From: Frateuria sp. Soil773
Lineage (GTDB): Bacteria > Pseudomonadota > Gammaproteobacteria > Xanthomonadales > Rhodanobacteraceae
Assembly: GCF_001428405.1 (NCBI RefSeq)
Contig: NZ_LMSL01000040.1
Coordinates: 150,122 to 214,121, forward strand
Direction: 5' to 3'
Length of the DNA stretch: 64,000 bases
A program made the position numbers and the translations under genes. Positions 8,701 to 55,094 of this stretch are shown here, piece after piece. The notes below the pieces were generated by a model. It was not told the origin of the DNA. It saw nothing but the letters and a program-made list of their open reading frames with translations, and ran no database searches. Position 1 is the stretch's first letter. Each line of letters begins with the position of its first letter.

Positions 8701-11700
8701 CGGTCGAGCTTCCCCTGGGCGTGCCCGCCGGGACGGCCCAGCCGGCGGATCAGACCCAGTTGTACCGGTTCACCGCGCAGGCCGGCGAGCACGTCTATTT
8801 CAGGGGCGATGCGCAGCATCGCTACGACGGATCGTGGATTCTGGCCGCCCCCGATGGGAGCATCGTCGCCAGCAGCGGTTCCCTGTACGACGTCACCGAC
8901 ATCGCGCTGTCGCTGTCGGGCGAGTACGTGCTGTCGGTCTGCCCCGGCGCAAGCAACGCATCGTCGGCTTCGCCGATCACTCTCGACTTCGCGCTGGGCC
9001 GCCGCATCGTCAGCGATGCCGCGCTGACCATGGGCCAACTGGTCAACGGCCAGATCACGCAAGCGGGCCAGAGCATCCAGTACGCCTTCACCCTGGATGC
9101 GGCCGCCTCGCTCCTGATGAACCCGCAGCACGGCGTCCAGGCGAGCTGGAGCCTGGTCGGACCGCGCGGGAGCGAAGTATCGCAGCGCAGCTTCGACGAC
9201 AGCAGTACGGGCACCATCCTCGCCCTGCCCCCGGGCACGTACGTGCTCACCATCGGGCGGACCGACCTTTCGACCGGGGCCTTCGCCTTCAGCCTTTCGG
9301 ACATCGGCTCCCTGCCGGCGTTGCCGCTGGGCCAGGATGTGGCGACCACCCTGCCCGCCGGTGGCCGCGTGGCCGCGTATGCCATCGATGTCGGAAGCGA
9401 CGGCGGCGACTATCGGATCGATATGCCTGCGCCGGTCAACAATACCTGGTGGAGCGTGGTCGACGCCCAGGGGCGTACGCTGCAGAACGGCTACGGCGGC
9501 TATGCCGACCAGCCGACGTTCCACCTGGGCAGCGGGCGGTATACGTTGCAGTGGAACACCTATTCGGGTGTGTCGGAGGATCTTCCGCTCACTTTCGCCC
9601 TGCTGCCGATCGTCACCACGTACCAGACGCTGGCGCTGGGAACGCAGGTCGCGGGAACGGTCGCCCAGCCGGGCCAATGCTACGAATACGACTTCAGCCT
9701 CGCCGCGCCGACCATGGCCTTGTTCGACAGCCTGGGCGCGGACGACGGCATCGAGTGGCAGCTCATCGGCCCCACCGGCACGCTGGTGGCCGGCACGGCG
9801 ATGAATGCGTCCGAATCCAATGCAGCGATCCCGCTGCAGGCTATCGGCCATTACCGCTTGCTGGTGACGCCGCGAGGCCATGCCACGGGGACATTCGGTT
9901 TCAACCTGATCGACCTCTCGGCCGTGCCGGCGCTGCCCCAGGGCACCGCGCAGACACTCGCCATCGGCAACTCCACGGTTGCCTATGCGTTCGACGCCCA
10001 TGCGGGCGACTACCTGCACTGGCCCATCGCCAGCGTCGGCACGGGCTCGGTGCGGGCCTGGATACTGGATGCGGACGGCAATCGCGTATTCGGCCCGGAT
10101 GCGGTTGCGCAGGGCGGCCGGTTCAACATCGAGCTCCCCGGCGACGGGCGCTACGTACTGGTGATCGCGGGAGACATCGGAAACGATGCAGGCGCCTCGC
10201 TCGGGTTCACCGCTTCCCTCGTCACGCCCGCAAGCGCCGCACTGGTGCTGGGCAGCGACATGCAAGGCTCGACGGCCGCCGCGGGCGTGCCCGACCATTG
10301 GACGTTCGCGCTGGCGGTGCCTACCCGCGTATTGATCGACGGCCTGGCGGGCCTGGGCCAGCAGTGGACCCTGCAAGGCAGCGACGGCTCCAGCTACGGC
10401 TCCCTGGATGACGCCACGCCGCTGGTGCTGGGGCCCGGCGTCTATTCGCTGGACATCGAGGCAGGCGAAGACGCGGCTGTCGGTTCCTACGCCTTCCGCC
10501 TGCTCGACGTGGCCCAACTGCCCGAGCTGACACCCGGGCAGCCGCTCGATGCCGCCATGACTGCGGGCCACGCCCTCGCCTACCGCGTGTCCAGCACGCT
10601 GGACCTGGCGGCGCTGCAGCTCTCGGTCGCCGGCGGCGACGCCGCCGTCAGCGTCTATGACGCCAACGGCAACCTGCTGGTCGACCGGCAAGGACCGTTC
10701 GACGGGCAATCCATCGCCGAGGCGGTCGGCGCCGGTACCGAGCGCATCATCGTCATCGACGGCGGCGACTCTTCCAGCTACACGGTCACCGTGAGCCAGG
10801 ACGCGGTCAGCGAGGAAACGCTGCCGCACGCCGACTGGGGCGCGATCCTGCGCGGCACGCTGGCCCATGCCGGCGACAGCATCAGCTACCGGATGAAGGT
10901 GGATTTCAACCAGGGGCCGGCAGTGGAGACGCTGCTGCGCGACATCGGTTCCCACGGCATCCACTGGAAACTGGCCGGGCCGGAGGGCGATGCCCCTTGG
11001 CAGGACCAGGACACCGCGCAGTTCTACGACCACAACCTGCCGGCCGGGGACTACCTCCTCACCATCGAGGCCACGGCCGACGACGCGGCCTACGCGCTGC
11101 AGACGATCGATGCGGCACGTGCGCCGCTGGCCGACAGCGGGAGCGTCCAGGCGACCCTGGCGGCCGGCCAGTGCTATGCGGCCTATCGCTACGACCTCGT
11201 CCAGCCCCGCTTGCTGCATATCGCCCTCGACGGCGGGGCCGGCCTCGCCTGGAGCTTGATCGACGCGGATGGCAACCAGGTCGCCAACGGCGATACCACC
11301 GCCCCCGTGGATACCGACCTGCTCGACAACGGCGTCTATACCCTGCTGATCGGCAGGGACGCGTCCGCCAGCGCCGATGCCGTTCCGTTCACGGCGTCGC
11401 TGACCGAGCGGGAACCCGAACTGACGCTGGGCAACATCACCACCGGGCACCTCGAATCCGGAAAGCGCGCGGTCTACCTCGTGGACCTTCCCATCGGCGG
11501 CCGCATCCGCCTGCACGATGCCGGCACCAATGGGAACGTACGCTGGGTCCTGGTTCCGGCTGGCGTCGGCGTGGAAGTGCCTTCCCTGGGCTCGGGCGAA
11601 TCCGGCAGCAATACGTTGGCCTGGGATTACCTGTCCGGCGATTCCGATGATTCGTTTGCCGCCGGCCGGTACGAACTCTACCTGGAGAACGACGACAACT

Positions 11701-14700
11701 ACGGCTCGGCAGACTACGCATTCCAGTTGTTCGACCTTAGCCACGCCCAGGCGCTGCCGGACTCCGGCGCCAGCGGCACGCTGCCCGGAGGCCACTACGC
11801 GGCGACCGCCTACAGCGTGAACGTCCAGCCGGGTACCGGCCTGCATCTGATCCTTGGCAGCGGCAATGCAGACGACTTCGGTTGGAGCCTACTCAACCAG
11901 TGGGGCGGCGTTTATGCAAGCTCGCTTTCCGCCGGCACCTACGACACCGATATATTGCCGGGCGGCACCTATACGCTCTGGATCAACGGCGATGCCCAGG
12001 CGGACTTCGCCTATAGCGTGAGCGCAACGCCGTTTACGCCGCCATCCTGCCAGCCGGGCCAGTTGCTGAGCGGCACCTTGTCCGAGGCCGCCTCGAAGGC
12101 GAGCTACCGCCTGGTCGTTCCCGAAGGGGGGCGCTTCCTGCTCCACGATGCGGGAAGCGCCACTGGCGTCAGCGTCGACATCATGCAGAACGGCAACGTG
12201 TTCACGCACGTCGGCGGCACGGATTCGAGCGGCTACGCATCGACGCCCCGCTGGATCGACCTGCCTGCGGGTACCTACGACATCCGGTTCATCGCCCAGG
12301 GATCGACGCCGGCCGATTACCGCTACGACCTGATCGACTACGCCACGGCGAGCCCGCTGCCGGCGACCGCGCTGGCCGCAACCCTGGCCGCGGGCCAGGA
12401 CGTGGCGCTCTACCGCTTCCATGCCGACGGCCTGACGCCGCTGGATCTCGGCGTCCTCGCCGCCGATCCCGCGACGATCGGCTGGTCGGTCTTCAGCGAA
12501 TACGGCGATGCCGGCACTGACGCCACGGGCGCCTCCGCCACCCTGCCCGCCAAGGGCGACTACACGCTGCTGGTCTATCGCAAGGCGCCGGGCGACCTGG
12601 CACTGGACTATCAGGTGTCGGCGACCGAGCTGGCGATCGAGGCAACGCCTCTCGCGGTAGGTACCAGCCAGACGCTCTCGCTCGCTGCGGAACAGGCCTA
12701 CAGGCAGGATTTCACCTTCAGCCTGGATGCCGCCCGCCGCCTGCTGCTCGTTGCGCCCGCCGCGACCAACGCCAACGTCGACTACGAAATCGTCGACGCC
12801 AACGGCCAGAGCCTGGTCAGCGGCTCGCTTTCCAACCCCGGCGGCAGTCCCTCATGGCTGCTGGCGGGTACCTATACGATCCGCTTCACGGGATCGTCGG
12901 CGACGCAGACGGCGTTCCAATTGCTGGACGCCGATGCAAGCGGCACGCTGCCGGCCAATGCGAACCAGACGATCGCCCTGGCATCCGGGAGCGACCTGCA
13001 GATCCTGAAGATCGGCGGCACCGCCGGCGACACGATCGCCATCAACAGCGTCCTGCTCGGCGGCAACAGCGTCTACTGGACCGTCATGGCCCCGGACGGG
13101 CAGCAGATCGGCAGCGCCTATGCCGACGGCGGCAGCTTCACCTGTCAGCTCACGCAGACGGGCAACTACCTGCTGATCGCCAGGGGAAGCGGCGAAGGAC
13201 AGTCCATCCGCTTCGTCTCGACGCTGCAATCGCATGCGGACCTGCCCGCGCCGGTCGTCTCCGCTCTCGCGCTGGATTCGGCCACGCACGACAGCATCGA
13301 CGCGAACGGAAGCTACGTCCATACCTTCCATCTCGACGCCACGTCGCTGCTGTTCATCGACGGCACCAGCAGCGGCACCGCGGCCTGGAAGCTGGTCGGG
13401 GCCGACGGCCAACTCGCCGGCGGGCGGTTCGGCAATTCTCCGGCGAGCGTTTCGCTTGGCGCCGGAGATTACCAACTGATCGTCGTGAACGAGGGAACCG
13501 GAGCCGTTTCCGCCGATTTCGACGTGACGACGCAGGCCAAGGCCACCGTGCTCGCCGCGGGCAGCAATGTGCCGGGCACGGTCGGCATCTACGCGTTGCC
13601 GCTTTCCGCAGGCAAGGACTATGAACTGGTCAGCGGCAACGGCGTTTCCTATGCGCTCTATCGTCCGGACCTGGGCTTCTACGGCTCCCGCTCCGACGGA
13701 GGCAGCAGCGAAGGCGGCTTTGGAAGCGGCGCGCGGCTGCAGGTGAGCCCCGATGCCGACGCCGTGTGGTACGTGGTGGTCCAGCGCTCGTACGGCGATA
13801 CGGCCGTCTTTGTCGACCAGCCCTCGGCGATGGCGTTGAACCAGCCGCAGGACGGCGAACTGGCGGGCGGCTTCCTCGACGTACGCACGCTGTCGCTGGA
13901 TAGCGACCAGCCCGTCTACTTCTATTCCACGGACGGCATCTCGTCCCTGCACATCTCGGGCGCAGGCATCGACAGGGATATCACCTTCGGGTACGGCCAG
14001 GAGGGCACCTTCCTCAACCTGGCCAAGGGCGACTACCGGATCGAGTTGAACGGCAACTCGAATTCGAGCGGGTACAGCTCGGGTTCGACCCCCTATGTCC
14101 TGTACGCGCTGAGCGCAAAGGACATCCCCACGCTCACCGCCGATACGGCGGCCAGCGTGACGCTGGCCGACCCGGACCAGGTCGTGCTGACCAGCTTCGA
14201 GGGCCAGCAAGGGCAGCGGCTCTACTACGTGCCGGATGCGGGCACTCCGTACGATGCGGAATGGACCCTGCTGGACGCACACGGAAACCACCTTGCGAAC
14301 GGTGAAGGGGATTTCGCTTCCGTGCTGCCGGCGCTGCCTGCCGACGGCGTCTACTACATGCGCTGGGACGTCTGGAACAAGGATGCCACGGGGAGCGTTA
14401 CCTGCGGCTTCAAGCTCTCCAGCAGCCTGGCGGCGCTGGATCCCGCATCACTTGGCGACGTCCTGCAGATCGCGCCAGGGTCCGGGCGCACGTCCGTCTA
14501 TCGCATCACCCTGGATGCGCCCACGCAGTTGATCCTCGCTCCGCAACTGACCGGGGCCGACAGCGATACGGATTTCTACTGGGAGCTGGACACGCTCGAC
14601 GGCTCCAGCTGGGGAAGCGATACCACGCTGGCCAACCCGGGCTCGCAGATGCTGGCCCTGGCAGCCGGCACCTACATCTTCAACGTCGGGCAGTATGGCG

Positions 14701-17700
14701 CCGGCGCGCTGACCCTCAGGCTCATCGACGGGCTGCAGGTGCCGGAAGTGGTGCCGAACCAGCCGGAAGCCCTGTCGCTTCCCCCCGGCACGACCCAGGT
14801 CTTCGGATTCAATGCGCTCGCCGGTACCGCCCTGCAGTACACCCCGGGCGACCTGGGCGCACTGCAAGGGCATTGGGTGCTGCTCGATCCCGACGGCAAT
14901 GTCGTTCAGGCGGCCGACCTTTCGGCGGCGACGGCATTGCAGATCAGGGACACGGGGCATTACCTGCTGCTGTGCCAGGCGGATGCGGGAAGCGCGGCCG
15001 ACGGGCGGCTGCAGTTCTCGCTCACGGGGGGGATCACGCCGGGAACCGGCACGCCGCAGCAGTCGATCCAGCTTGGTGAGCCGGTCGAACTGGCTTCTGG
15101 CGAGACGGCCTCCTTCACGGTCGCCACTGCAACCCACGTGCTGGTGGATTTTCCGTCGTCCCCCGGCTACGGGCAGTACTGGGCCATCCTGAGGGATGGC
15201 CAGGTCGTCTGGAGCAGCCAGACCTACACCCCGTCGCTTGCCAGGGAGGAGAGCGATTCCGAATCCGGCTATGTCGTCGAATTGACGGAAGGCGACTACC
15301 AGCTCGCCTTCACGGGCAACTCGAACAGCAGCAACGGTTACGTGCGACTGCTCGATCTGGGCCTGGCACCCACCATCGCCGCCGGGACGGCAGTGACCGG
15401 AAGCGCTTTCATCGGGGTTGCGAGCGCCTACAGCTTCCAGGCGGCAGCCGGAGACAACCTCGTCGTACAGTCCGACGAGAGCGACATCGTCTGGACGGTC
15501 TACGACGAATTCGGCCATCTCGTCGGGCAGGCGGCCAGCGGCAGCCAGGTAAGCCACCTGCCGCGCACCGGCAAGTACTACCTCGTGCGCGATACCGACT
15601 CCTCCGGCGGCGGAGAGGCCGTGGCCGATACGGGCAGTGCCGTCGACTTCAGCTTCTCGATAAGCCTGAACCGGTCCGTCCCGGTATTGACGATCGGGCA
15701 GCAGGCCGACGGCATCCTCGACAGCAACGGCGAACTCGCCTACCGGTTCGTTTCATCCGCGGCTTCGACGCTCTGGCTCTCGTCGATGGACAGTTGGCCG
15801 TCGGTCTCCGCGCAGATTTACGACAGCCACGGCGTGCTCGTCTATGACGGCCAATCCAGCCGGGGCTTCGACCGTCCGATCCTGCTGCCTGCCGGCGGCA
15901 GCTATACCCTGCTCTTGCGCGGCGATTCCGGGCAAGACGATGCCGGCAGGGACATCCACATCCTGCTCGGCGACATAAGCGCCGCGGCAACGATTGCGAC
16001 AGGCGACGCGGTCACCGGCAGCTACGATCCGGCCGCGGGCGTCGTCGCCTATCGCCTGGACATGCCGCAGGCGGGCGACTTCAGCTTCGTGGGAGTCGCG
16101 GGCAACAACGGAAACCTGCGCTGGAAGCTCCTGTCGCCCTATGGCGTCGAACTGGCGTCCGGATACGCCAACGCGAACAGCCCGCCCTATGCCCTGGCGG
16201 CAGGCAGCTACCTGCTGGTCATCGACGGCGAAGGCTATGTAAGCGCCCCGGCGGACTACCAGTTCACCGCCGGCGGAGCCATGCCCGCCATCCCGCTCGG
16301 CAGCCTCATCACCGGAACGCTGCCGCAGTACGTGACCACGCAATACAAGGTGCATTTCGACGCGGACGCGGTGCTGGCCTTCGAGAGCTCCGGCACGTCG
16401 CTCACCTGGCAGCTGACCGGTGCTACCGGAACGGTCTTCTCCCAGGGCACGGGCGCCTATTTCGGCAAGATCGCCGCCGGCGACTACATTCTCACCGTCA
16501 GGAACAGCTACTACAGCAACGCGTCCTACAGCTTCCGCATCCTCGACGTCGGCGCCTCCGCCAGCGCCGAGCCACTGCCCGAAAACGTGGCGGTCGACAC
16601 CAGCCCCGCACTGCAGACCGGCGTGAAGATCTACCGCTTCGACGCGACGGCGGGAGCGAAGTACTTCCTCGACGTCCTTTCCAACAGCGGCGTCGGCTAC
16701 GGCAACTCCCCGCGCTGGACCCTGCTGGATCCGCAGGGCCATGCGGTCTTCGGTCCGACCAGCATGGCCTACTACTCCAGCGGCTACGACGTCGATCTCG
16801 GGACGCTGGCGCAAGGCGGCACCTATACCCTGATCGTGGAAGGAGCGAATACCACCGGTACGGCACCCGACGTCAAATTCCGCCTGGTCAGGGTCCCCGA
16901 GTACCCCACGGTGATCCTGGACACGCTGGTGGCCAACCCGGGTCCCGACCTCGCCGTCAACAGCATCGTGCTGAATCCCGCCACCGACCTGCACACCGGC
17001 CAGGACGTAGACGTGCAGTGGGTGCTGGAGAACCGCGGCATGCTGTCCACCGGCGGCAACTGGACCGACCGCATCGTCGTGCGCAACACCGAGACCGGGG
17101 CGATCATCGCCGACCTGAGCGTGCCCTACGACGCTGCGGCGTACGGGACGCTGGATGCCGGCCAGTCGATCACGCGCCACGTCACCCTGCACCTGCCCGA
17201 CGGCACCGTCGGCGCCGGCCATCTCAGCATCACGGTGCTCGCCGATGCCGACAACGTGCTGAAGGAAAGCAATGCCAGCGGCACCGCCGAGGGCAACAAC
17301 GCACTTACGACCGAGGTCGACGTCGCGCTCGCGCCCTACCCCGACCTGGCCGTTCAGGACCTGACGCTGCAGCCTTCCGGCGCATTCGAGCCCGGCCAGA
17401 CCGTCCAGGTCGGCTGGACGACGGCGAATCTGGGGACATTGCCGGTATCGGCCCCCTGGAGCGAGACGCTGGAGGTGCGCAACCTGTCGACCGGCAAGCT
17501 GGTCGCCAGCTTCACGCTGCGCGATACGCTGGATGCCGGTCCGCTCGATCCCGGCGCCAGCCGCCAGCGCAGCGGCAGCTTCGTATGGCCGGCGGGAGTG
17601 GATGCCGCCGGCAATTTCTCGATCCGCGTCGTCGCCGACAGCCTGGGCGAGATTCCCGAGGGCAATGCCGATGGCACGGCCGAGACGAACAACGTGGCCG

Positions 17701-46210: not shown

Positions 46211-47065
46211 TCATGGTTCCGGCTGCGCAATGCACCGCGACAGTCCTTCGATAACGCGCTCGACCGAAATCCCCTTCATGGCGTCGCCCGGCGCATGCCG
46301 CGCGCTGTCGTATTTGCCGGGGGGCCACGGGATTTCGCCATGGACGTCGATGCACAGCGAGCCGTCGCGATACGGGCCGTAAGTCAGGGCGCTGGTGGCG
46401 CCGTACAGGCCAACGACGGGTATGCCCAAGGCGTCGGCCAGATGGACATGGCCGCTGTCCGGGCCGACCAGCGCCCGGGCGCCGGCGATCAGGTCGCCAA
46501 GGGCTGCCGCATCGATATCCCGGTGGATGACGCCGGCGGGTGCCGGAACGCGCGGCCTGCCCGGCATGCCGCAGATGAAGACGCCCTGCCGGCATCCGAG
46601 GAGATATTCCGCGACGGCGCCCCACCGTACTGCCGGCCACTCCTTGTAGCCGGCCCCGGCATGCGGGCAGAGGACGACGTAGGGACGCTGCCCTTCCGGC
46701 GGCGAGGCATCGAGTCGCAGTACCAGATCGCGTCCTTCGGCCACGCCTGCTGCCCTGGCCATGGTGTCGCGCACGTGCTCCCCGTGCCGGGGGCCGTGGA
46801 ACGCGAAAGGCAGCGACTGCCATTGCGTGCCGCGGTCGCTGGCCGAAACGGGCAGCGGGCCGCCGGCGAACAGCGTCGCGTAGGGGCGATAGGCGACGAA
46901 GCCGTCTGCCTTGCCTTCCGCCGCCAGGGCGACCGTGACCGCATAGGCGTGGATGCTGTCGCCCAGGCGGCGCGTGACGTGCAGTGTCCCCGGGCGCGGC
47001 GGCGGCACCGGTCGGCGCACCGGCAGGCGACGGGACTGGAGCGGCGGCGTGCGCCGGCGGCGCAT
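46211..47065 (-). CDS. Glycosyltransferase family 9 (heptosyltransferase-like) protein
   Basis: This 284-residue protein resembles ADP-heptose:LPS heptosyltransferases (GT9, GT-B fold). It has an N-terminal RLGDSIHA motif (about residues 33-40), CPHAGAGYKEWPAVRW in the middle, and GPDSGHVHLADALGIPVV in the nucleotide-sugar-binding half. Family members transfer heptose or related sugars during lipopolysaccharide core or glycan assembly at the inner face of the cytoplasmic membrane. It is shorter than the usual 320-350 residues, and the arginine- and proline-rich first 25 residues may mean the true start is internal. It starts 10 bases after the lipoprotein gene, so the two are probably co-transcribed. 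Confidence 0.75.
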   Translation of the reverse strand: MRRRRTPPLQSRRLPVRRPVPPPRPGTLHVTRRLGDSIHAYAVTVALAAEGKADGFVAYRPYATLFAGGPLPVSASDRGTQWQSLPFAFHGPRHGEHVRDTMARAAGVAEGRDLVLRLDASPPEGQRPYVVLCPHAGAGYKEWPAVRWGAVAEYLLGCRQGVFICGMPGRPRVPAPAGVIHRDIDAAALGDLIAGARALVGPDSGHVHLADALGIPVVGLYGATSALTYGPYRDGSLCIDVHGEIPWPPGKYDSARHAPGDAMKGISVERVIEGLSRCIAQPEP

Positions 47066-47075
47066 CCGGCCGGCC

Positions 47076-47390
47076 TCAGGAAGCCGGCGGAACGATCGTC
47101 ATGCCGTGCAGCCCTTCGCGTTGCGCATGCCCGGGGCCGAATTCCACCACCTTGCCGTCCTTGAGGACCACCGTGTAGTCGGTGCGGGACAGCGAACGCC
47201 GCCGCCAGTGCCGGCCCAGGTAGGTGTAGACCTGGTAGTCGTCGACGATCCGCATGGCGTCCGGGCGCCCCAGTTGGGCGAACACGTCGGCGCTGCCGCT
47301 GCCCGGCTGCAACCGGGTGATCTTTTCGCCGGTGGTGCTGCACGCGGCAAGCGCGACCGCCGCAAGGGCAGCCATCACGATAGGTTTCAT
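47076..47390 (-). CDS. Small SmpA/OmlA (BamE)-like lipoprotein
   Basis: The 104-residue product starts at 47390 behind a GGGAGGGGGA ribosome-binding site. It has a lipoprotein signal with lipobox LAAC (Cys17). The mature part (SADVFAQLGRPDAMRIVDDYQVYTYL and VVLKDGKVVEFGPG) resembles the two-layer SmpA/OmlA fold of BamE-type outer-membrane lipoproteins. The frame is open upstream, but the lipoprotein signal fixes this start. It is followed closely by the GT9 gene. A role in the envelope is likely; it is probably not the housekeeping BamE, which is normally in another context. Confidence 0.7.
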   Translation of the reverse strand: MKPIVMAALAAVALAACSTTGEKITRLQPGSGSADVFAQLGRPDAMRIVDDYQVYTYLGRHWRRRSLSRTDYTVVLKDGKVVEFGPGHAQREGLHGMTIVPPAS

Positions 47391-47639
47391 TCCCCCTCCC
47401 CTGTCCATAGACCGGATTCCCTGGACGCGCATCATATAGCCTGTTCCGTCCGTGGACAGGGCCGGCGCGCGCACTTGGCACGGCGAACCGCCGGGTGCGA
47501 AAATCCGCCCGAGGGGGAACTGGCCGGAGTCCTAGCGTCCTGGCGCCACGCAGGTGGCGGCCGGCGATGCCGTGCCGATCCGGAAGCCTGCGGTTCCCCT
47601 GGCCGCCGACAAGGGAATCGAGGTTTGCCGCAACATGCC

Positions 47640-49124
47640 ATGTCTTTCCATGCAGCGCCCGACGACGGGAACGTCCGCGTGCCCTGCAAGCCGTCCAGCC
47701 GCCCTCGGCCCCAGCCCGTGAATGCTTCGCCGGCGCTGGTCGTCGCGCTTTGCCTCCTGCTGGCGCCATCGTGCACGCACGCGCTACCCGCGGCCGCCAG
47801 GACCACCACGCTCGGCGAACTGTTCGACGCATCCGTGGAAAGCGAGCCCGGCTACCACGCGGCCAAGGCCAACGTCGCCGTATCGCAGGCGCGCACGCGG
47901 CAGGCCCTTGGCGCGATGCTCCCCCAGCTCTCCCTGACGGCGAGCGCGAACGGCAACCGCCGCAGCTACAACACCCACGACGCCACGACGGTCACCATGT
48001 ACGACCGCTACCACAGCCACAGCGACCAGTTGAGCCTCACCCAGCCGATCTGGCGCCCGGCCAACGTCGCCACGTGGGACGAGGCGAAGGACAGCGAGGC
48101 CCAGGCCCACTACCAGCTGGCCGATGCCGAGCAGAAGCTCTACGCGAAGCTGGCCGATGCCTGGTTCGACCTGATGGAGGCGCGCGACGAGATCGAATTC
48201 ACCGCCGCGCAGCGCGATGCCCTGCAGGCGCAATGGGCCATCGCCCGGCGCGGCGCCGAGCTGGGCGCGCGCGGCGTTCCGGAGGCGGACGAGGCGGAGG
48301 CCAAGTACCGCGAAGCCGATGCGGACGCGGCATCCGCCGCGCTCGACCGCGAGGCCAAGCTCGCCGCCCTCGAACAACTGGCCGGGCCCGCCGACGGCCT
48401 GCTGCAACCGTACCTGCGCGATGACGCCGACCTTCCCGACCTGGTCGGCGGCGATCCGGACGCCTGGCTCGACCTGGTCGACAGCGAGTGCCCCAGCCTG
48501 CACGCCGCGGCCCGGGCCGTCGCGGCCGCCGACGACGAGGTGCGCAAGCAGCGCGCCGGCGGCCGGCCGACCCTCGACCTGGTGGCCAACTACGGCAACA
48601 ACGACCAGGCGGTGGGCAACTTTCCCGGGCAGAACGGCTACGGCATCCGCACGCTGACCGTGGGGTTGCAGCTCAACGTGCCGCTGTATACCGGCGGCAC
48701 CCAGTCGGCCAAGGTGGCCGAAGCGCTCGCCGCGCGGGAAAAGGCGCTGGCGGACCGCGACGCGGCGCGGCGCCAGGCCATCCTCGACATCAGGACGGCC
48801 TTCCTGCAATGGCGCTCCGGCCTGGCCAAGGCGAAGGCATCGCGCGTCGGCATCGCCTCGGCCCGCACGTCGTGGCAAGCCGCCGTCCGGGGCGAGGCCA
48901 AGGGCCTGAAGACCCATGCCGACGTGCTGTCGGCCATCCAGCAATGGGAGGGATTGCGCCGCGACCTGCACAAGGGGCGCTACCAGCAGATCACCGCCTA
49001 CGTGAAACTGCGCGCCACCCTCGGCCAGTTGGGCGCCGAAGACGTCGACGAGCTCGACCGCCTGTTCAGCGCCACCGACCAGGACGCCCCGCCCCTCGCC
49101 GATGCGCGCGGAGGGACGCCATGA
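47640..49124 (+). CDS. TolC-family outer-membrane factor
   Basis: The protein (494 residues from ATG 47640) is an outer-membrane efflux channel of the TolC/OEP type. A signal sequence (NASPALVVALCLLLAP, ending near HALPAAA) precedes two OEP repeats. Each has long alanine- and glutamate-rich helices, with beta segments such as LSLTASANGNR and LTVGLQLNVPLYTGG typical of the barrel strands. A GTG at 47718 (468 residues) is an equally good start because it places the hydrophobic core closer to the N-terminus. Its stop overlaps the next start as ATGA, so it leads a translationally coupled operon. Such trimeric channels let substrates pass the outer membrane with periplasmic adaptors, here encoded just downstream. 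Confidence 0.85.
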   Translation: MSFHAAPDDGNVRVPCKPSSRPRPQPVNASPALVVALCLLLAPSCTHALPAAARTTTLGELFDASVESEPGYHAAKANVAVSQARTRQALGAMLPQLSLTASANGNRRSYNTHDATTVTMYDRYHSHSDQLSLTQPIWRPANVATWDEAKDSEAQAHYQLADAEQKLYAKLADAWFDLMEARDEIEFTAAQRDALQAQWAIARRGAELGARGVPEADEAEAKYREADADAASAALDREAKLAALEQLAGPADGLLQPYLRDDADLPDLVGGDPDAWLDLVDSECPSLHAAARAVAAADDEVRKQRAGGRPTLDLVANYGNNDQAVGNFPGQNGYGIRTLTVGLQLNVPLYTGGTQSAKVAEALAAREKALADRDAARRQAILDIRTAFLQWRSGLAKAKASRVGIASARTSWQAAVRGEAKGLKTHADVLSAIQQWEGLRRDLHKGRYQQITAYVKLRATLGQLGAEDVDELDRLFSATDQDAPPLADARGGTP

Positions 49125-50956
49125 ACCGTGCGGCTCCCACGCTTCCGGCGCAGGAAGGCGGACCGGCCACGGCGTGGGAACGCTTCGTGTCCGCCCGCAC
49201 GTCGGACGCCTTCGGCGCGGCGTGGCTGGCGCTGGTCTGCGAAAGGCATCCGGCGGTGCGCCAGGCCGCCGTGCTGGCCGAATCCGCCGACGGCCAGAAC
49301 TACGTTCCCCTGGCGGTCTGGCCGGCGGCGAGCACCGACATGGGGCGGATGGGCGAGGCCGCGCAACAGGCGCTCGGCGGGCGGCGCATCGCCGTGCAGC
49401 GGGTGCCGGACCTGCCCGGCCTGCTGCACGTCGCCGTGCCGCTGGGCGAAGGCGAGCGCGTCGCCGGAGCGGTGGTGGTGGAGGCCGCGCTGGAGGAGTC
49501 GGCGATCCAGGACCTGCTGCGGGAGCTGCACTGGGGCAGCGCCTGGCTGGTCAACATGTTCGGCCGGCGCGAGCTTGCCGAGGCGCGCAAGGCCAGCGAG
49601 CGCTCCCTCGGCGTGCTGGAAACCATTGCCGTCGCGTTGCGCCATGCGCACTTCCAGCAGGCGCTGTTCGAATTGAGCAACGCGCTGCGCCAGCGCTTTG
49701 CCTGCTCCCGGGTCGCGATCGGCCTCGTCCGCGAAGCGCATGCCCGCCTGGCCGCCTTGTCGGAGGCCGCCACGTTCGAGAAGTCCTCGCCGATGGTGCA
49801 TGCCTACGTGGACGCCATGGACGAGGCCTGCGACCTGGGCCAGGTCGTGCACGCTTCGTCGGCGCCGGATGCGGACGACTACCGCGCGCATCGCGCGCTC
49901 ATGCAGCGCGTCGGCGCCGGTGCGCTGATCAGCGTGCCGGTCACCCACCGGGCGCGGACCGTCGCGGTGGTGGTGCTCGAACGCGAGAACGCCGCGCCGT
50001 TCGACGCCGACGAACGGCGCTGGCTGGAGACGTTCGCCAGCCTGTTCTCTCCCGTCGTCGTGCAGCGGACCGACGCCGAGCGCAGCTCGCTGCGGCGGCT
50101 GGGCGACGAGGCGCGCGGCTTCTGGGCGGGCCTCGTCGGGCCACGCCACCTGCTGTGGAAGGCCGGCGCCGCATTGGCGGCGATCGTGCTGGCCCTGCTG
50201 GTCTGGCTGCCGGTGCCCTATCGCGTCGCGGCGAAGACGGTGACCGAGGGTGAAATCCAGCGCGTGGCGGCCGCCCCGTTCGAGGGCTACCTGGCGGCCA
50301 GCCTGGTGCGCGCCGGCGACGTGGTGCGCAAGGGCCAGCCGCTGGCCCGGCTCGACGACCACGACCTGCTGGTAGAGCGCGCCAAGTGGTCCAGCGAGCG
50401 CGACCAGTACCGCAACAAGCTGCGCGAGGCGATGGCCGAGCACGACCTCACCGCGGTCCGCGTGGTCACCGCCCAGCTGGACGAGGCGCAGGCGCAGCTC
50501 GACCTGGCCGAGGACAAGCTGGCCCATGCCAGCGTGCTGGCGCCGTACGACGGCGTGGTCGTCAGCGGCGACCTCAGCCAGCAGATCGGCACGCCGGTGG
50601 AAGCGGGCAAGAAACTGTTCGAGATCGCCCCGTTGCGCAGCTACCGCATCGTCCTGGAGGTGGACGAGCGCGACATCGGGCAGATCCAGGTCGGCCAGCC
50701 GGGCGACCTGGTGATGAGCGGGCTGGCCGGCCGGCCGATGCCGTTCGCGGTGGCCCGGATCATGCCGGTGGCGACCGTGCAGGACGGCAAGAACTTCTAC
50801 CGCGTCGAGGCGCGGCTCGAGCACGATTCGCCGCTGCTGCTGCCGGGCATGGAAGGCGTCGGCAAGGTCGAGGTCGGGCGGCGCAGGCTCGGCTGGGTGC
50901 TGCTGCACGGCCTGCTCGACTGGCTGCGCATCAGCCTGTGGCGCTGGAGCCCGTAG
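49121..50956 (+). CDS. GAF-domain/HlyD fusion: membrane-anchored periplasmic adaptor
   Basis: This 611-residue protein starts at ATG 49121, overlapping the TolC stop by four bases. Residues about 20-150 and 170-320 look like two GAF-type sensor domains (VAVPLGEGERVAGAVVVEA; ISVPVTHRARTVAVVVLER). A single transmembrane helix follows at about 345-365. The periplasmic half has an HlyD barrel-sandwich (APFEGYLAASLVRAGDVVRKGQPLARLDD), a short coiled coil, the second lipoyl half (APYDGVVVSGDLSQQIGTPVEAG) and a beta-barrel. The C-terminus (LLHGLLDWLRISLWRW) is amphipathic. Adaptors usually link an inner-membrane motor to a TolC channel; the cytosolic GAF domains suggest signal- or ATPase-dependent gating. 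The function is inferred. Confidence 0.8.
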   Translation: MNRAAPTLPAQEGGPATAWERFVSARTSDAFGAAWLALVCERHPAVRQAAVLAESADGQNYVPLAVWPAASTDMGRMGEAAQQALGGRRIAVQRVPDLPGLLHVAVPLGEGERVAGAVVVEAALEESAIQDLLRELHWGSAWLVNMFGRRELAEARKASERSLGVLETIAVALRHAHFQQALFELSNALRQRFACSRVAIGLVREAHARLAALSEAATFEKSSPMVHAYVDAMDEACDLGQVVHASSAPDADDYRAHRALMQRVGAGALISVPVTHRARTVAVVVLERENAAPFDADERRWLETFASLFSPVVVQRTDAERSSLRRLGDEARGFWAGLVGPRHLLWKAGAALAAIVLALLVWLPVPYRVAAKTVTEGEIQRVAAAPFEGYLAASLVRAGDVVRKGQPLARLDDHDLLVERAKWSSERDQYRNKLREAMAEHDLTAVRVVTAQLDEAQAQLDLAEDKLAHASVLAPYDGVVVSGDLSQQIGTPVEAGKKLFEIAPLRSYRIVLEVDERDIGQIQVGQPGDLVMSGLAGRPMPFAVARIMPVATVQDGKNFYRVEARLEHDSPLLLPGMEGVGKVEVGRRRLGWVLLHGLLDWLRISLWRWSP

Positions 50957-50968
50957 GAATACCCGCCG

Positions 50969-53113
50969 ATGGCGCGCAACCCGTTCAGCCCTTCCTGGCA
51001 CAGCGTCGCGAACCTGCGGCCGCGGCTGATGCCGTACGCGGTGGTGCAGCGGGTGGTGTTCCGCGGCCGGCCCTGGTACGTGGTGCAGGACCAGACCGGC
51101 GGCCGCGTCTACCGGTTCTCGGCCGCGGCCTATGCGCTGATCGCCGGCATGGACGGCCGCCACACCGTGCAGGCGCTGTGGGAGCGCGCCAACGCCTCGG
51201 AAGTGCGCGACGCCTGCACCCAGCCGGAAGTGGTCGACCTGCTGGTGCAACTGCACGCCGCCGACCTGCTGCAGACCGATGCGCTGCCCGATTCGGCCAC
51301 CGCGCTGGACCGCCACCGGAAGAAGCGCTCGGAACTGCTGCGCCAATGGCTGCTCAACCCGATGAGCCTGCGCCTGCCGCTGTTCAATCCCGACCGTCTG
51401 CTAGGGCGGCTGCTGCCGTACGTGCGCTGGTGTTTCGGGCCGCTCGGCGCCGCGCTCTGGCTGGCCGCGATGCTGCCTGCCGTCGTGCTCGCCGCGCAGC
51501 ACTGGCAGGAACTGACCCGCAACCTGTCCGACCGGGTGCTTTCCTCGAGCAACCTCCTGGTCATGCTGGCGGTGTACCCGGTGGTCAAGCTGCTGCACGA
51601 GCTCGGCCACGGCTTCGCCGCCAAGCGCTGGGGCGGCGCCGTGCGCGAGCTCGGCCTGATGTTCCTGATCTTCGCGCCGGTTCCCTACGTGGAGGCTTCC
51701 TCGTCGGCCGCCTTCCCTTCCAAGTACCGGCGCGCCCTGGTCGCCGCCGCCGGGATGATGGTGGAACTGCTGCTGGCGGCGCTGGCCCTGTACGTCTGGC
51801 TGCTGGCCGAGCCCGGCGTCGTGCGCGCGGTCGCCTTCAACGTGATGGTGATCGGCGGCGTGTCCACGCTGCTGGTCAACGGCAATCCGCTGCTGCGCTA
51901 CGACGGCTACTACATCCTGGCCGACCTCATCGAGATGCCGAACCTGGCCCAGCGCGGCCAGGCCTGGTGGGCCTGGCTGCTGGACCGCTACGTTTTCGGC
52001 GCCACCGAGGCGACGAAGCCCGACGAGACGGCCGGCGAACGCCGCTGGCTGTTCTTCTACACCCCGCTGGCGTGGTGCTACCGCACCTTCGTCACCCTCT
52101 CGGTGATCTTCCTGGTGGCCGGCAAGTACTTCATCGTCGGCGTAGCGATGGCCGCATGGAGCGCGGTCAGCCTGCTCGGCGTGCCGCTCTACCGCGGCTG
52201 GAAGCATCTGCGCTCGGCGCCGGCGCTGCATCGCCGCCGCGCGCCGGCCATGCGCCGCACCCTCGCCGCGCTGGCCTGCGCGGCCCTGCTCGCGGCCTGG
52301 CTGCCGCTGCCGCTGCGGACCCGCGCGGAAGGCGTGGTCTGGCTGCCCGACCACGCCATGCTGCATGCCGGCGAGAACGGCTTTTTCGCGCGCTGGCTGG
52401 TGCAGCCGGGGACGCAGGTCGAGGCGGGACAGCCGCTCTACGTGCTGGACGACCCGCAGCTCCACGCCGAGGTCGAGGTGGACCAGGCAAAGCTGGCGCA
52501 GGCGCAGGCGCGTTACGACGCCGACCGGTTCACCGACCCGGCCAAGGCGGCGATCTCGGCCCGCCAGCTCGACGAAGCCCGCGACGTCCTGCGCCAGGCC
52601 GAGGCGCGCGCCGCGCGGCTGACCGGCTTCGCGCAGGCCGGCGGCCGGCTGATGGCGGCCATGCCGCAGGACATGCCGGGCCGCTACTACAAGAAAGGCG
52701 AACTGGTCGGCTACGTGCTGCGCAACGACGAACTGCTGGTGCGGGCCATCGTGGACCAGGACGACATCGACCTGGTGCACAAGCGGCTGCGCGGCACATC
52801 GCTCAGGCTGGCCGACGCCCTGGGACAGGTCTGGCCCTCGCGTGTCGAAAGGGCGTTCCCCGGCGCCGTCGACGAATTGCCGACCGCGGCGCTCGGCCTG
52901 AACGGCGGCGGCGCGATACCCACCAGCCCGAACGACCCGAACGGCCTGAAGACGCTGCAGCGGGTCTTCGTGGTGGACCTCGCCCTGCCGCCGCACGTCC
53001 GGCCCCCGTTCGGCGAGCGCGTGTACGTGCGCTTCGAGCACGGCAGCGAATCGCCGCTGCGGCAGGGCATGCGCCGGTTGCGGCAGGTCTTCCTGAGCCA
53101 TTTCGGTGTCTGA
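50969..53113 (+). CDS. PqqD-like / M50 site-2-protease-type / HlyD fusion protein
   Basis: The 714-residue product begins 12 bases after the previous stop. Residues about 15-110 form a PqqD-like winged-helix domain (VYRFSAAAYALIAGMDGRHT). A multi-pass membrane region with the M50 metalloprotease motif H210-E-L-G-H214 follows, then NPLLRYDGYYILADL, which contains the conserved aspartate of the zinc site. After the last helices comes a periplasmic HlyD lipoyl domain (ARWLVQPGTQVEAGQPLYVLDD), a coiled coil and a beta-barrel. The active-site residues are intact, so proteolysis is plausible. Related M50-HlyD fusions occur with peptide exporters. In this operon it could anchor the SecA-like motor or process the giant substrate. 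Its stop overlaps the next start by eight bases. Confidence 0.85.
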   Translation: MARNPFSPSWHSVANLRPRLMPYAVVQRVVFRGRPWYVVQDQTGGRVYRFSAAAYALIAGMDGRHTVQALWERANASEVRDACTQPEVVDLLVQLHAADLLQTDALPDSATALDRHRKKRSELLRQWLLNPMSLRLPLFNPDRLLGRLLPYVRWCFGPLGAALWLAAMLPAVVLAAQHWQELTRNLSDRVLSSSNLLVMLAVYPVVKLLHELGHGFAAKRWGGAVRELGLMFLIFAPVPYVEASSSAAFPSKYRRALVAAAGMMVELLLAALALYVWLLAEPGVVRAVAFNVMVIGGVSTLLVNGNPLLRYDGYYILADLIEMPNLAQRGQAWWAWLLDRYVFGATEATKPDETAGERRWLFFYTPLAWCYRTFVTLSVIFLVAGKYFIVGVAMAAWSAVSLLGVPLYRGWKHLRSAPALHRRRAPAMRRTLAALACAALLAAWLPLPLRTRAEGVVWLPDHAMLHAGENGFFARWLVQPGTQVEAGQPLYVLDDPQLHAEVEVDQAKLAQAQARYDADRFTDPAKAAISARQLDEARDVLRQAEARAARLTGFAQAGGRLMAAMPQDMPGRYYKKGELVGYVLRNDELLVRAIVDQDDIDLVHKRLRGTSLRLADALGQVWPSRVERAFPGAVDELPTAALGLNGGGAIPTSPNDPNGLKTLQRVFVVDLALPPHVRPPFGERVYVRFEHGSESPLRQGMRRLRQVFLSHFGV

Positions 53114-55094
53114 CGTACGCGCCCTGCTGGCCGGCCGCGACCTGCCGCTGGGGGACGGCCCCTACCTCGAGCGGCTGGACCCGCCGCGCCGCCCCTGGGA
53201 AGACCGGCTACGCTCGCTGCTGGACCGGCTGCCGCGGCCGGAACACCGGCGTGCGCAGGCCTTCCTGCACGCCACCAACGGGCTGGAGGCATCCGCCCGC
53301 AGCCGGACCGACGCCGCGCTGCGCACCGGCCTGGACGAGGCGGTGCGGCAGATCCGCCGCCACGGCTTCGACGACCGCACCCTGCCCGCGGCCTTCGCCC
53401 TGGTGCGCGAGGCTTCGCGGCGCACGCTCGGCATGCGCCACCACGACGTGCAGTTGCTGGCCGGCCGCACGCTGCTCCGCGGCCGGCTGGCGGAAATGTC
53501 GACCGGCGAAGGCAAGACCCTGGCCGCCACGCTGGCCGCCTGCACGGCGGCCGTGACCGGCGCGGCCGTGCACGTGGTCACGGTGAACGACTACCTGGCC
53601 GAGCGCGACGCCGAGCACAACCGCCCGCTGTTCGAGCTGCTGGGCCTGAGCGTCGGCGTGGTGCTCCAGGACATGGACGTGCCCGGGCGCCGTCAGGCCT
53701 ATGCCTGCGACATCACCTACGTGTCGAACAAGGAACTCACCTTCGACTACCTCAAGGACTGCATCGCGCTGGGCGAGGCCTCGGCGACCCAGCAGCGCCT
53801 GCGCGAGTTCGCCGGCGGCGGGCGCGGCGAACCGCCGATCCTGCGGGGCCTGCACGTGGCCATCATCGACGAGGCCGACAGCGTGCTGATCGACGAGGCC
53901 GGCACGCCGCTGATCATTTCCGAGACGCTGCCGGACGATCTCGACCCGGCCATCTACACCCAGGCCATCGCGCTGGCGGACTCGCTGCGGCCGGGCATCG
54001 ACTTCATGTCGGGCGAGCATCGCGACGTGTGGCTGACGCCGAAGGGCAAGCAGGCGATCCGCAAAGCGGCCGACGACCATGGCGGGCTGTGGCGCTCGCC
54101 GCTCTGGCGCGAGGAGTTCGTGCAGAAGGCGCTGTCCGCGATCCACGGTTTCCAGCGCGACCAGCACTACATCCTGGCGGACGACAAGGTGCAGATCGTG
54201 GACGAATCGACCGGCCGCGTGATGCCCGACCGCACCTGGGAGCGCGGCCTGCACCAGATGATCGAGTCGAAGGAGGGCTGCGAGGTGACCGGGCAACGAC
54301 GCACCCTGGCGCAGATCACCTACCAGCGGTTCTTCGGCCGCTACCTGCTGCTGTGCGGCATGACCGGCACCGCGCAGGAAGTGGCCGCCGAGGTGGGGCG
54401 CACCTATGGACTGGCGGTGACGCGCATCCCGCTGCACCGTCCGAGCCGCCGCACCCGCCTGCCGGACCGCATCTGCGCCGACACGTCGCTGCGCTGGCGC
54501 GAGGTGGCGCGGCGCGCCCGCGAGGTGGCCGCGGGCGGGCGGCCGGTGCTGATCGGCACCCGCTCGGTGGAGGCTTCGGAACGGCTCAGCGCGCTGCTCG
54601 CCGGGGAAGGAGCGGAGCACACCGTGCTCAACGCCCGGCAGGACGAGGCCGAGGCCGAGGCCGTCTCGCTCGCCGGGCAGCCGGGGCGGATCACGGTAGC
54701 CACCAACATGGCCGGGCGCGGCACCGACATCAAGCTGGACACGCGTTCCGAACAGGCCGGCGGCCTGCACGTCATCCTGACCGAATTCCACGAATCGGCG
54801 CGCGTCGACCGCCAGTTGTTCGGGCGCTGCGCGCGCCAGGGCGACCCCGGCACGACCGAGGCCATCGTCAGCGTCGACGACGAACTGTTCCGCCGCTTCG
54901 CGCCCGGGCCCGGCCGGGCATTGATGGCGCGGCTGGTGGTCGGCACGCACATCAGCCGGCGCTGGCTGCGCGCCTGGGTGACCCTGATCCAGAACCGCGC
55001 CGAGCGGCACTACCGCTCCCAGCGCAGCTCGACGCAACGCCAGGACGCGGAGTGGATGAAGGCGCTGGGCTTCGTCGGCAAGACGCGCAAATAG
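53106..55094 (+). CDS. SecA-like ATPase, short accessory form
   Basis: The GTG at 53106 lies inside the end of the M50 gene. The 662-residue product has both SecA motor domains. Walker A is MSTGEGKTL with K137, the DEAD-type Walker B is IIDEADSVLIDEA, and TNMAGRGTDI lies in motor domain 2. A preprotein cross-linking domain is inserted (YACDITYVSNKELTFDY to about residue 350). After VSVDDELFRRF the sequence soon ends (about 65 residues), so most of the helical scaffold, wing and C-terminal linker of the roughly 900-residue housekeeping SecA are missing. An N-terminal extension of about 60 residues is unusual. It is clearly an ATPase of the SecA family but not the general secretion motor. Its operon suggests a dedicated partner of the adaptor and protease proteins. 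Confidence 0.9.
   Translation: MSDVRALLAGRDLPLGDGPYLERLDPPRRPWEDRLRSLLDRLPRPEHRRAQAFLHATNGLEASARSRTDAALRTGLDEAVRQIRRHGFDDRTLPAAFALVREASRRTLGMRHHDVQLLAGRTLLRGRLAEMSTGEGKTLAATLAACTAAVTGAAVHVVTVNDYLAERDAEHNRPLFELLGLSVGVVLQDMDVPGRRQAYACDITYVSNKELTFDYLKDCIALGEASATQQRLREFAGGGRGEPPILRGLHVAIIDEADSVLIDEAGTPLIISETLPDDLDPAIYTQAIALADSLRPGIDFMSGEHRDVWLTPKGKQAIRKAADDHGGLWRSPLWREEFVQKALSAIHGFQRDQHYILADDKVQIVDESTGRVMPDRTWERGLHQMIESKEGCEVTGQRRTLAQITYQRFFGRYLLLCGMTGTAQEVAAEVGRTYGLAVTRIPLHRPSRRTRLPDRICADTSLRWREVARRAREVAAGGRPVLIGTRSVEASERLSALLAGEGAEHTVLNARQDEAEAEAVSLAGQPGRITVATNMAGRGTDIKLDTRSEQAGGLHVILTEFHESARVDRQLFGRCARQGDPGTTEAIVSVDDELFRRFAPGPGRALMARLVVGTHISRRWLRAWVTLIQNRAERHYRSQRSSTQRQDAEWMKALGFVGKTRK

Follow-up and report, generated by a model that had tools for sequence, protein, structure and literature searches.

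Related systems

A locus that combines a GAF-HlyD protein, an M50-HlyD protein and a secondary SecA was described in 2015; the part of that account concerned with it leaves its biological role open, already proposes a regulatory or sensory role for the GAF/HlyD protein, and puts the M50 protein forward as a possible pore (Kamneva, Poudel and Ward, 2015; PMC4452313). The locus analyzed here, in a window of 64,000 nucleotides (the whole stretch of Frateuria sp. Soil773 DNA that was studied), is of this type, with a secondary SecA_DEAD gene beside GAF/HlyD and M50/HlyD genes. As far as that portion of the paper describes it, the published locus has the same gene set and likewise joins GAF and HlyD in one protein, to which our analysis adds a tandem GAF arrangement, a retained M50 active site and LEPR-XLL proteins as the likely substrate. 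The locus type has been known since 2015; the LEPR-XLL link, which identifies a likely substrate, is the added result. With it, a locus of so far open role acquires a concrete cargo along with a short candidate signal, which makes the export question testable in environmental bacteria. Our main reading, to which we assign a probability of roughly two-thirds, is that the GAF-HlyD protein is an inner-membrane adaptor of a dedicated exporter of giant LEPR-XLL proteins, gated by its GAF pair.

The locus also resembles Type I secretion (HlyB-HlyD-TolC), the route by which LapA-type adhesins are exported, in pairing an HlyD adaptor and a TolC channel with a giant, repeat-rich, adhesin-like cargo. 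However, the four genes of the window operon include a SecA-like ATPase and an M50 protein and no ABC transporter, and the conserved motif of the LEPR-XLL cargo sits at the N-terminus. The tandem-GAF sensors PDE2/5/6 and CyaB2 share domain fold and two-domain order with the adaptor, whose output would instead be export; the two also differ by a large two-domain rmsd and by the absence of the NKFDE motif from the adaptor.

Operon and giant gene

At the level of sequence, the architecture of the adaptor, its operon, the retained protease and ATPase motifs and the pairing with LEPR-XLL proteins are established as set out below. The genes and sites are as follows.

5775–43583, + strand: repeat protein of 12,602 aa with an N-terminal LEPR-XLL leader, the proposed substrate
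5871–5936, + strand: LEPR-XLL stretch (NF012209) of the giant, 34.3 and 39.3 bits
47475–47504, + strand: sigma-70-like site 5' of the TolC gene (by consensus only)
47640–49124, + strand: outer-membrane channel of TolC type, 494 aa with the start chosen here (OEP, E 1.6e-47)
49121–50956, + strand: GAF-GAF-TM-HlyD adaptor, 611 aa (open reading frame, Pfam profiles, structure model)
50969–53113, + strand: PqqD-like, M50 metalloprotease and HlyD-like protein, 714 aa, HELGH kept
53106–55094, + strand: short SecA-like ATPase, 662 aa (SecA_DEAD, E 2.2e-97)

The start ATG of the adaptor gene shares 4 bases with the stop of the preceding TolC gene, and the SecA-like gene overlaps the M50-HlyD gene by 8 bases. 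Between 46,800 and 55,700 one sigma-70-like site was observed, against 0.2 expected from shuffles. The TolC-type protein matches TIGR01844 (E 5e-62) with 210 bits, under the cut-off of 225. In the window M50-HlyD protein the PqqD match (PF05402) reaches 14.9 bits, under the Pfam cut-off of 23.4; across the family 18 of 23 M50-HlyD members match at E <= 0.1, the best at 9.5e-9. HExxH and N306/P307/D312 are unchanged in all 23 M50-HlyD proteins, and the Walker A and DEAD motifs are conserved in at least 90% of 21 SecA-like proteins. The window giant passes the NF012209 model, at 34.3 bits against a cut-off of 17.

Architecture of the adaptor

The initial annotation described an HlyD adaptor preceded by two GAF-like domains, an arrangement borne out by a combination of profile and structural evidence. 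The parts of the adaptor are listed here.

49166–49495, + strand: first GAF-fold domain, residues 16–125 (structure only: model pLDDT 92.5, best matches are GAF structures)
49496–49639, + strand: long helix between both GAF domains, residues 126–173 (secondary structure of the model)
49646–50080, + strand: second GAF domain, residues 176–320 (PF01590, E 9.7e-11; Z 18.0 to 3ci6)
50147–50218, + strand: single transmembrane helix, about residues 343–366 (hydropathy; model helix 344–361)
50210–50887, + strand: HlyD/MacA-type periplasmic adaptor domain, residues 364–589 (Pfam HlyD_3 and HlyD_D23; MacA structure matches)
50888–50947, + strand: conserved, tryptophan-rich C-terminal helix, residues 590–609 (model and family conservation)

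The second domain is recognized directly by PF01590 over residues 179–309 (42.8 bits, cut-off 22.4). Its model aligns with the GAF structure 3ci6 over 152 residues at an rmsd of 2.8, and its sequence matches 21 sequences of solved structures at E <= 0.1, with PDE5/6 on top. The first domain gave no Pfam GAF match, even when searched alone; in the family, 3 of 23 members match PF01590 there at E <= 1 (best 0.00061). Its profile compares weakly with that of the second domain (hhalign probability 23%, E 9e-4), and its sequence has two matches among solved structures, both at chance level. Modelled alone, however, it reaches a mean pLDDT of 92.5; the best Foldseek match of this model is the GAF structure 3p01 (E 4.3e-5), and VIA-align pairs it with GAF 3ci6 (Z 13.8, 130 residues, rmsd 3.7). 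The first domain thus appears to adopt a GAF fold, as judged by a confident model and not by a Pfam sequence match. Roadblock-type chains also occur among its structure matches, at Z 11–12.

The adaptor region carries both an HlyD profile (HlyD_3 at residues 472–576, E 2.1e-20) and the fold of HlyD/MFP periplasmic adaptors. Hydropathy gives one hydrophobic stretch, residues 343–371, and because there is a single membrane stretch and the usual HlyD topology is assumed, the GAF pair would lie on the cytosolic side. We consider it confirmed that the reading frame at 49121–50956 encodes a genuine, recurrent bacterial export adaptor that carries two sensor-type domains, predicted to face the cytosol. 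Tandem GAF domains could be aligned from PDE5 (adaptor residues 17–329, rmsd 11.0), PDE2 (15–331, 9.5) and CyaB2 (1–321, 7.5), values from which we conclude that the two GAF domains of the adaptor are placed differently toward each other than in these proteins. Relatives of the GAF part were absent from 50,697 phage records.

Recurrence of the locus

The combination of GAF and HlyD, first noted as unusual, is so among HlyD proteins at large, but within this locus type, as far as the 2015 paper covers it, it is a standing subunit (Kamneva et al., 2015; PMC4452313). Comparison with other GAF-HlyD operons agreed: all 80 closest named loci align across both GAF domains, from residue 34 or earlier to 609–611. 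An M50-HlyD gene follows in every one of the 73 among these with at least 2.3 kb downstream, and a SecA-like gene in 65 of the 66 with at least 5 kb. The order GAF-HlyD, M50-HlyD, SecA-like also recurs in a set of 22 retrieved loci, all of which have M50-HlyD and 21 of which have SecA-like. The GAF-HlyD adaptor is a standing subunit of an already published type of locus. Tractable laboratory strains that carry it include Methylobacterium extorquens AM1, which the 2015 paper names, and a Dyella. Class II loci have M50-HlyD and no nearby SecA-like gene (10 of 10), so a SecA step is not general.

Role of the GAF pair

Conservation was assessed in an alignment of 111 rows, comprising 79 of the 80 named loci (L165 was omitted for its broken frame), 31 others and the window protein itself. 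In at least two cases a pair of rows duplicates one gene (L007/L135, L008/L140), and 9 type-B rows lie outside the counts given over 102 type-A rows. Mean conservation is 0.49 in GAF columns and 0.66 in HlyD columns. Polar residues of the second domain are kept (S214 in 102 of the type-A rows, E235 in 99, H257 in 97), which is compatible with a common ligand or partner.

NKFDE is the motif of cyclic-nucleotide-binding GAF domains; it is absent from every one of the 111 rows, and a GAF domain of that kind was rejected as judged by motif. A redox state had also been put forward as a gating signal. Because C195 is variable, being replaced by alanine or glycine in 12 of the 102 type-A rows, close relatives among them, and CxxC is rare (2 of 111 rows), gating by a conserved thiol is disfavored and a redox switch through a conserved cysteine was rejected. 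Gating by a small ligand, taken on its own, falls somewhat short of an even chance in our judgment. If the tandem GAF does gate, the sensor would be built into the secretion adaptor itself.

The GAF pair could alternatively be a structural docking and dimerization module that binds no small ligand and serves to hold a partner, such as the SecA-like motor or the leader. The poor conservation of the GAF columns, the missing NKFDE and the long inter-domain helix, a feature of tandem-GAF dimers, fit such a role, but S214, E235 and H257, kept in 95–100% of 102 rows, speak against it. So do the class II adaptors, half of which (5 of 10) match GAF at E <= 0.02, one of them over the cut-off; since these lack a nearby SecA-like gene, the pair probably does more than dock SecA. 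We regard a ligand-free docking module as possible, if doubtful. In our main reading the cytosolic GAF pair, joined by its long helix, would most likely sense a cytosolic small molecule or a partner and gate or assemble the channel.

Pairing with LEPR-XLL proteins

Co-occurrence was counted in 299 sampled genomes of the phylum, with kinship among genomes ignored. Where a GAF-N match is present, LEPR-XLL exceeds its cut-off in 33 of 36 genomes, and where it is absent, in 34 of 263; the three exceptions (G111, G273, G276) have weak partial GAF matches. When M50-HlyD scores above 450 bits, a LEPR-XLL match is present in every genome (37 of 37), versus 30 of 262 others. The 450-bit divide between close and distant M50-HlyD was set post hoc at the gap from 452.6 to 361.4 bits, and 5 of the 37 matches are marginal (G042, G073, G120, G163 and G202; 17.0–18.6 bits, cut-off 17). 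The association is incomplete in both directions: among the LEPR-positive genomes, 6 have no M50-HlyD at E <= 1e-50; conversely, LEPR does not exceed the cut-off in 23 of the 84 genomes with M50-HlyD.

The genes are also often neighbors. A LEPR-XLL reading frame lies within 10 kb of GAF-HlyD in at least 28 of 47 loci (the 51 GAF matches, less 6 that are partial or have frames unlike the family, plus G002 and G010), a count that is an approximate lower bound because it used 42 LEPR rows and gene ends estimated from frame length; in the other 19, no LEPR frame of the 42-row set is on the same contig. In one genome, G054, there are four GAF-HlyD loci, and every one of them has a LEPR frame of its own, 11,649–15,434 codons long, no more than 5 kb away. 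On plasmids, a LEPR-type gene stands upstream of the locus in all 8 records examined, within about 4 kb in 7; these are 8 of 14 matched records; of the others, H1 and H2 have no annotation, H14 was left out, and no feature is listed beneath the match in H6, H7 and H10. In 7 of the 8, DUF3467 separates the giant gene from the GAF-HlyD gene; it has no match at E <= 1 in the genome of the window and was rejected as a core part here.

Gene pairing indicates giant LEPR-XLL surface proteins as the likely cargo. The locus might instead be an efflux or maturation system for small molecules or peptides, with the adjoining giant gene unrelated. Its M50 part does resemble peptide-maturation proteases, namely the daptide model NF041824 (E 5.9e-41, but 140.9 bits against a cut-off of 300) and YydH/LiaK NF058609 (E 2e-8, but 34.2 bits against 225), and its adaptor resembles MacA/RND adaptors. 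In contrast to those proteases, the window M50 protein has a fused HlyD domain. The LEPR-XLL pairing recurs (37 of 37 genomes, four pairs in one) and a small precursor is not among the four genes of the operon, so that we consider this explanation highly improbable.

Proposed export mechanism

We infer that export, leader recognition, cleavage and GAF gating proceed as follows. With its HlyD part the adaptor would span the periplasm and reach the TolC channel, whose gene lies directly upstream; its inner-membrane partners would be the PqqD-M50-HlyD protein and the SecA-like ATPase. PqqD-like domains are leader-binding folds in peptide systems; here the domain may recognize the LEPR-XLL leader, which the M50 protease would cut off while the SecA-like ATPase drives the chain through. 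A fully specified version is an ABC-free machine for some of the largest proteins in bacteria. In it the PqqD-like domain reads the leader, an intramembrane M50 cuts it, the chain is driven by the short SecA straight into a conduit of TolC and HlyD, and the tandem GAF, on the cytosolic face of the adaptor, opens that conduit only once a metabolite is bound; this version seems to us unlikely.

Export could also occur in two steps, the SecA-like protein working with SecYEG and the adaptors merely guiding the giant from the periplasm to TolC, as the retained SecA domains and nucleotide motifs would allow. The leader argues otherwise: it is mostly hydrophilic and has no Sec-type hydrophobic stretch, and none precedes LEPR in the 20 of 20 readable leaders (10 of 30 LEPR loci were omitted, having no motif near the center). 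We therefore judge two-step export to be quite unlikely, and prefer the dedicated exporter. Leader hydropathy maxima reach 1.71 once the 30 residues past the motif are counted.

The GAF-HlyD locus and its domain architecture

GAF-HlyD, a protein with two GAF-fold domains and a membrane helix ahead of an HlyD/MacA-type adaptor, is the second of four genes on one strand. The single promoter-like site found lies at 47475, and a giant open reading frame (ORF) ends 4 kb before the TolC-type gene.

Features of the locus (window positions)
5775-43583: giant ORF, 12,602 aa, LEPR-XLL stretch close to its start
47640-49124: TolC-type channel, first gene, same strand as the other three
49121-50956: GAF-HlyD, second gene, same strand, 611 codons; overlaps the TolC-type gene by 4 bases
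50969-53113: PqqD-like/M50/HlyD gene (M50-HlyD), same strand; 12-base gap after the GAF-HlyD gene
53106-55094: SecA-like gene, same strand; 8-base overlap with the M50-HlyD gene

Those pieces of the giant ORF that were tested hold tandem-95, VCBS and large-adhesin-like repeats. Between it and the TolC-type gene, the minus strand of 46211-47474 carries two ORFs: one is heptosyltransferase-like (E 5.9e-12, under model cut-offs), the other small, lipoprotein-like by eye and with no family match.

The initial annotation placed two GAF-like domains before the adaptor, and both are borne out, domain 2 (residues ~176-320) by Pfam and structure and domain 1 (~16-125) by structural match. Pfam detects one GAF domain, at residues 179-309 (PF01590, E 9.7e-11); its HlyD matches begin at about residue 382. 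The best NCBIfam model, an RND adaptor family, scores 94.6 bits, slightly below its cut-off of 94.9. Domain 2 is clearly a GAF domain by structural comparison (Z 18.0). The profile match did not extend to domain 1, N-terminal to it, which had no Pfam GAF match in the window protein. Across the family, PF01590 matched domain 1 at E <= 1 in 3 of 23 members, hhalign gave it a 23% probability of relationship to domain 2, and sequence comparison with solved structures returned two chance-level matches only. Its predicted structure is confident (pLDDT 92.5), and GAF domains top both lists in searches with this model, with Roadblock-type chains next (Z 11-12). Both domains, connected by a 48-residue helix in the model, can be aligned to the tandem-GAF structures of PDE5, PDE2 and CyaB2, with a large rmsd (7.5-11.0). 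Strong hydrophobicity is confined to a single stretch, residues 343-371, and the usual HlyD topology would place the GAF pair on the cytosolic side. Short conserved stretches with aromatic/arginine positions were seen at the C-terminal ends of GAF-HlyD (window 50888-50947; W592, W601, W607) and M50-HlyD (window 53050-53110; including R705).

GAF-HlyD and its partner genes

The adaptor had been called unusual; its architecture is real and the initial annotation was right in its main point, and the protein is not unique. Kamneva et al., 2015 (PMC4452313) already describe this type of locus; the new element here is the proposed LEPR-XLL cargo. The N-terminal 360 residues matched in 36 of 299 genomes of a phylum draw, the source genome counted, and a scan with the whole protein returned at least 472 stretches encoding relatives; HlyD proteins that lack GAF may be among them. 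Among the best 80 of these, every alignment starts at residue 34 or earlier, and the genera and groups include Fulvimonas (79% identity), Dyella, Rhodanobacter, Trinickia, Methylobacter, Accumulibacter, Bradyrhizobium, Desulfobacteraceae and Nitrospira.

The initial annotation suggested a comparison with other operons. M50-HlyD lies nearby in 77 of these 80 (73/73 with at least 2.3 kb downstream) and the SecA-like gene in 70 (65/66 with at least 5 kb), counts drawn from the closest relatives, a choice favouring constant M50-HlyD pairing. In 22 other loci the figures were 22/22 and 21/22, and thus M50-HlyD accompanies GAF-HlyD in every testable case examined. Six of these 22 (L071, L078, L080-L083) have a short third HlyD-like ORF after the SecA-like gene; none was noticed at that place in the window.

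Association with LEPR-XLL giants

Of 38 genomes with GAF matches, 35 carry LEPR-XLL (NF012209), an N-terminal motif of giant repeat proteins, at a score above the cut-off. Within the 299-genome draw the motif passed that threshold in 33/36 genomes with an N-terminal GAF-HlyD match versus 34/263 without, and 28 of those 34 carry M50-HlyD at E <= 1e-50. It was found in 37/37 genomes with a close M50-HlyD (>450 bits; five of the 37 LEPR-XLL matches score only 17.0-18.6 bits) versus 30/262 others, and in 61/84 versus 6/215 when all M50-HlyD at E <= 1e-50 are counted; Fisher values are very small, kinship among genomes being ignored. A LEPR ORF lies within 10 kb of GAF-HlyD in at least 28 of 47 loci, and in one genome (G054) four GAF-HlyD loci are accompanied by as many LEPR ORFs, the members of every pair lying at most 5 kb apart.

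Eight of 14 matched plasmid records were examined, and on seven a LEPR-type giant lies within ~4 kb upstream of GAF-HlyD. Five giants (Mesorhizobium, Methylosinus, Pseudosulfitobacter, Terrarubrum, Thalassospira) bear [LIF]EPRxL[LM] at residues 16-54; the Pontibrevibacter giant is assigned from annotation; that of Pseudohalocynthiibacter has YEPRLLL near residue 62, in a frame that continues beyond the end of the record and reopens where the record begins. On the eighth, Rhodobacteraceae M382, the annotated LEPR-XLL gene is 14.4 kb away in the upstream direction, on the far side of the record's start; the space adjoining GAF-HlyD is occupied by an open frame of 4,238 codons. A small DUF3467 gene, possibly for a chaperone or regulator, sits between giant and GAF-HlyD on 7/8 alphaproteobacterial plasmid records (L214-L218, L220, L221); DUF3467 had no match in the window's genome.

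Only two of the open-access articles searched use the term LEPR-XLL, in passages on a giant protein from Vibrio and a transcript from Baikal that mention no exporter, and none of the other papers listed in the search links the motif to this type of exporter.

The proposed leader and the M50-HlyD protein

A readable motif was obtained from 20 of 30 LEPR loci, where a frequent pattern is a basic stretch followed by [FLV]E[AP]-[LMI]EPR-x-LL-S-[GA]-[DE]. Ahead of the motif, all 20 lack a hydrophobic stretch comparable to the signal peptide of the window's TolC: 12-residue hydropathy maxima reach 0.95, or 1.71 with the 30 residues after the motif included, versus 2.81. Judged by sequence, LEPR-XLL has the look of a peptide leader and not of a Sec signal. 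In peptide systems, PqqD-type domains are leader binders. A PqqD match at E <= 0.1 was present in 18 of 23 M50-HlyD proteins, and HExxH plus the N-P...D motif are invariant in all 23. We therefore prefer a putative active protease to the pore role suggested in the 2015 article (PMC4452313).

Class II loci and the proposed role of the GAF pair

More distant loci (class II), one of them in the window's genome, combine M50-HlyD with other HlyD proteins; none of 10 had a SecA-like gene within the stretches examined, and five of the 10 adaptors gave a weak GAF match, one over the cut-off. Class II genomes have LEPRx[LM][FL]D[GA]A (nine stretches: L119, L120, L122, L124, L127, L129-L132), an ending different from LEPRxLLS[GA][DE]; the end of the leader thus seems to follow the exporter class. 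The locus in the window's genome (L119, G000:C2:543001-563000; 6855-14738), with M50-HlyD and no SecA-like gene within that stretch, has an HlyD adaptor with a weak GAF match (E 0.0012), together with a 687-aa protein that bears LEPRLMFDGA (LEPR-XLL 16.6 bits, slightly below cut-off).

That GAF matches occur in some class II loci lacking a nearby SecA-like gene argues against a GAF role limited to SecA docking. We propose that the GAF pair is a sensor or assembly gate; ligand sensing by the pair is tentative, at somewhat under even odds. Sensing of redox state had also been suggested, and conservation across the GAF-HlyD rows makes a thiol switch unlikely. The NKFDE motif was absent from 111 rows. 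In 102 type-A rows, which are not independent (at least two pairs are the same gene), column conservation is 0.49 for GAF, similar to the linker (0.48), and 0.66 for the less variable HlyD part. Domain 2 retains each of S214, R197, E235, D238 and H257 in 93-100% of these 102 rows, suggesting a common pocket or contact.
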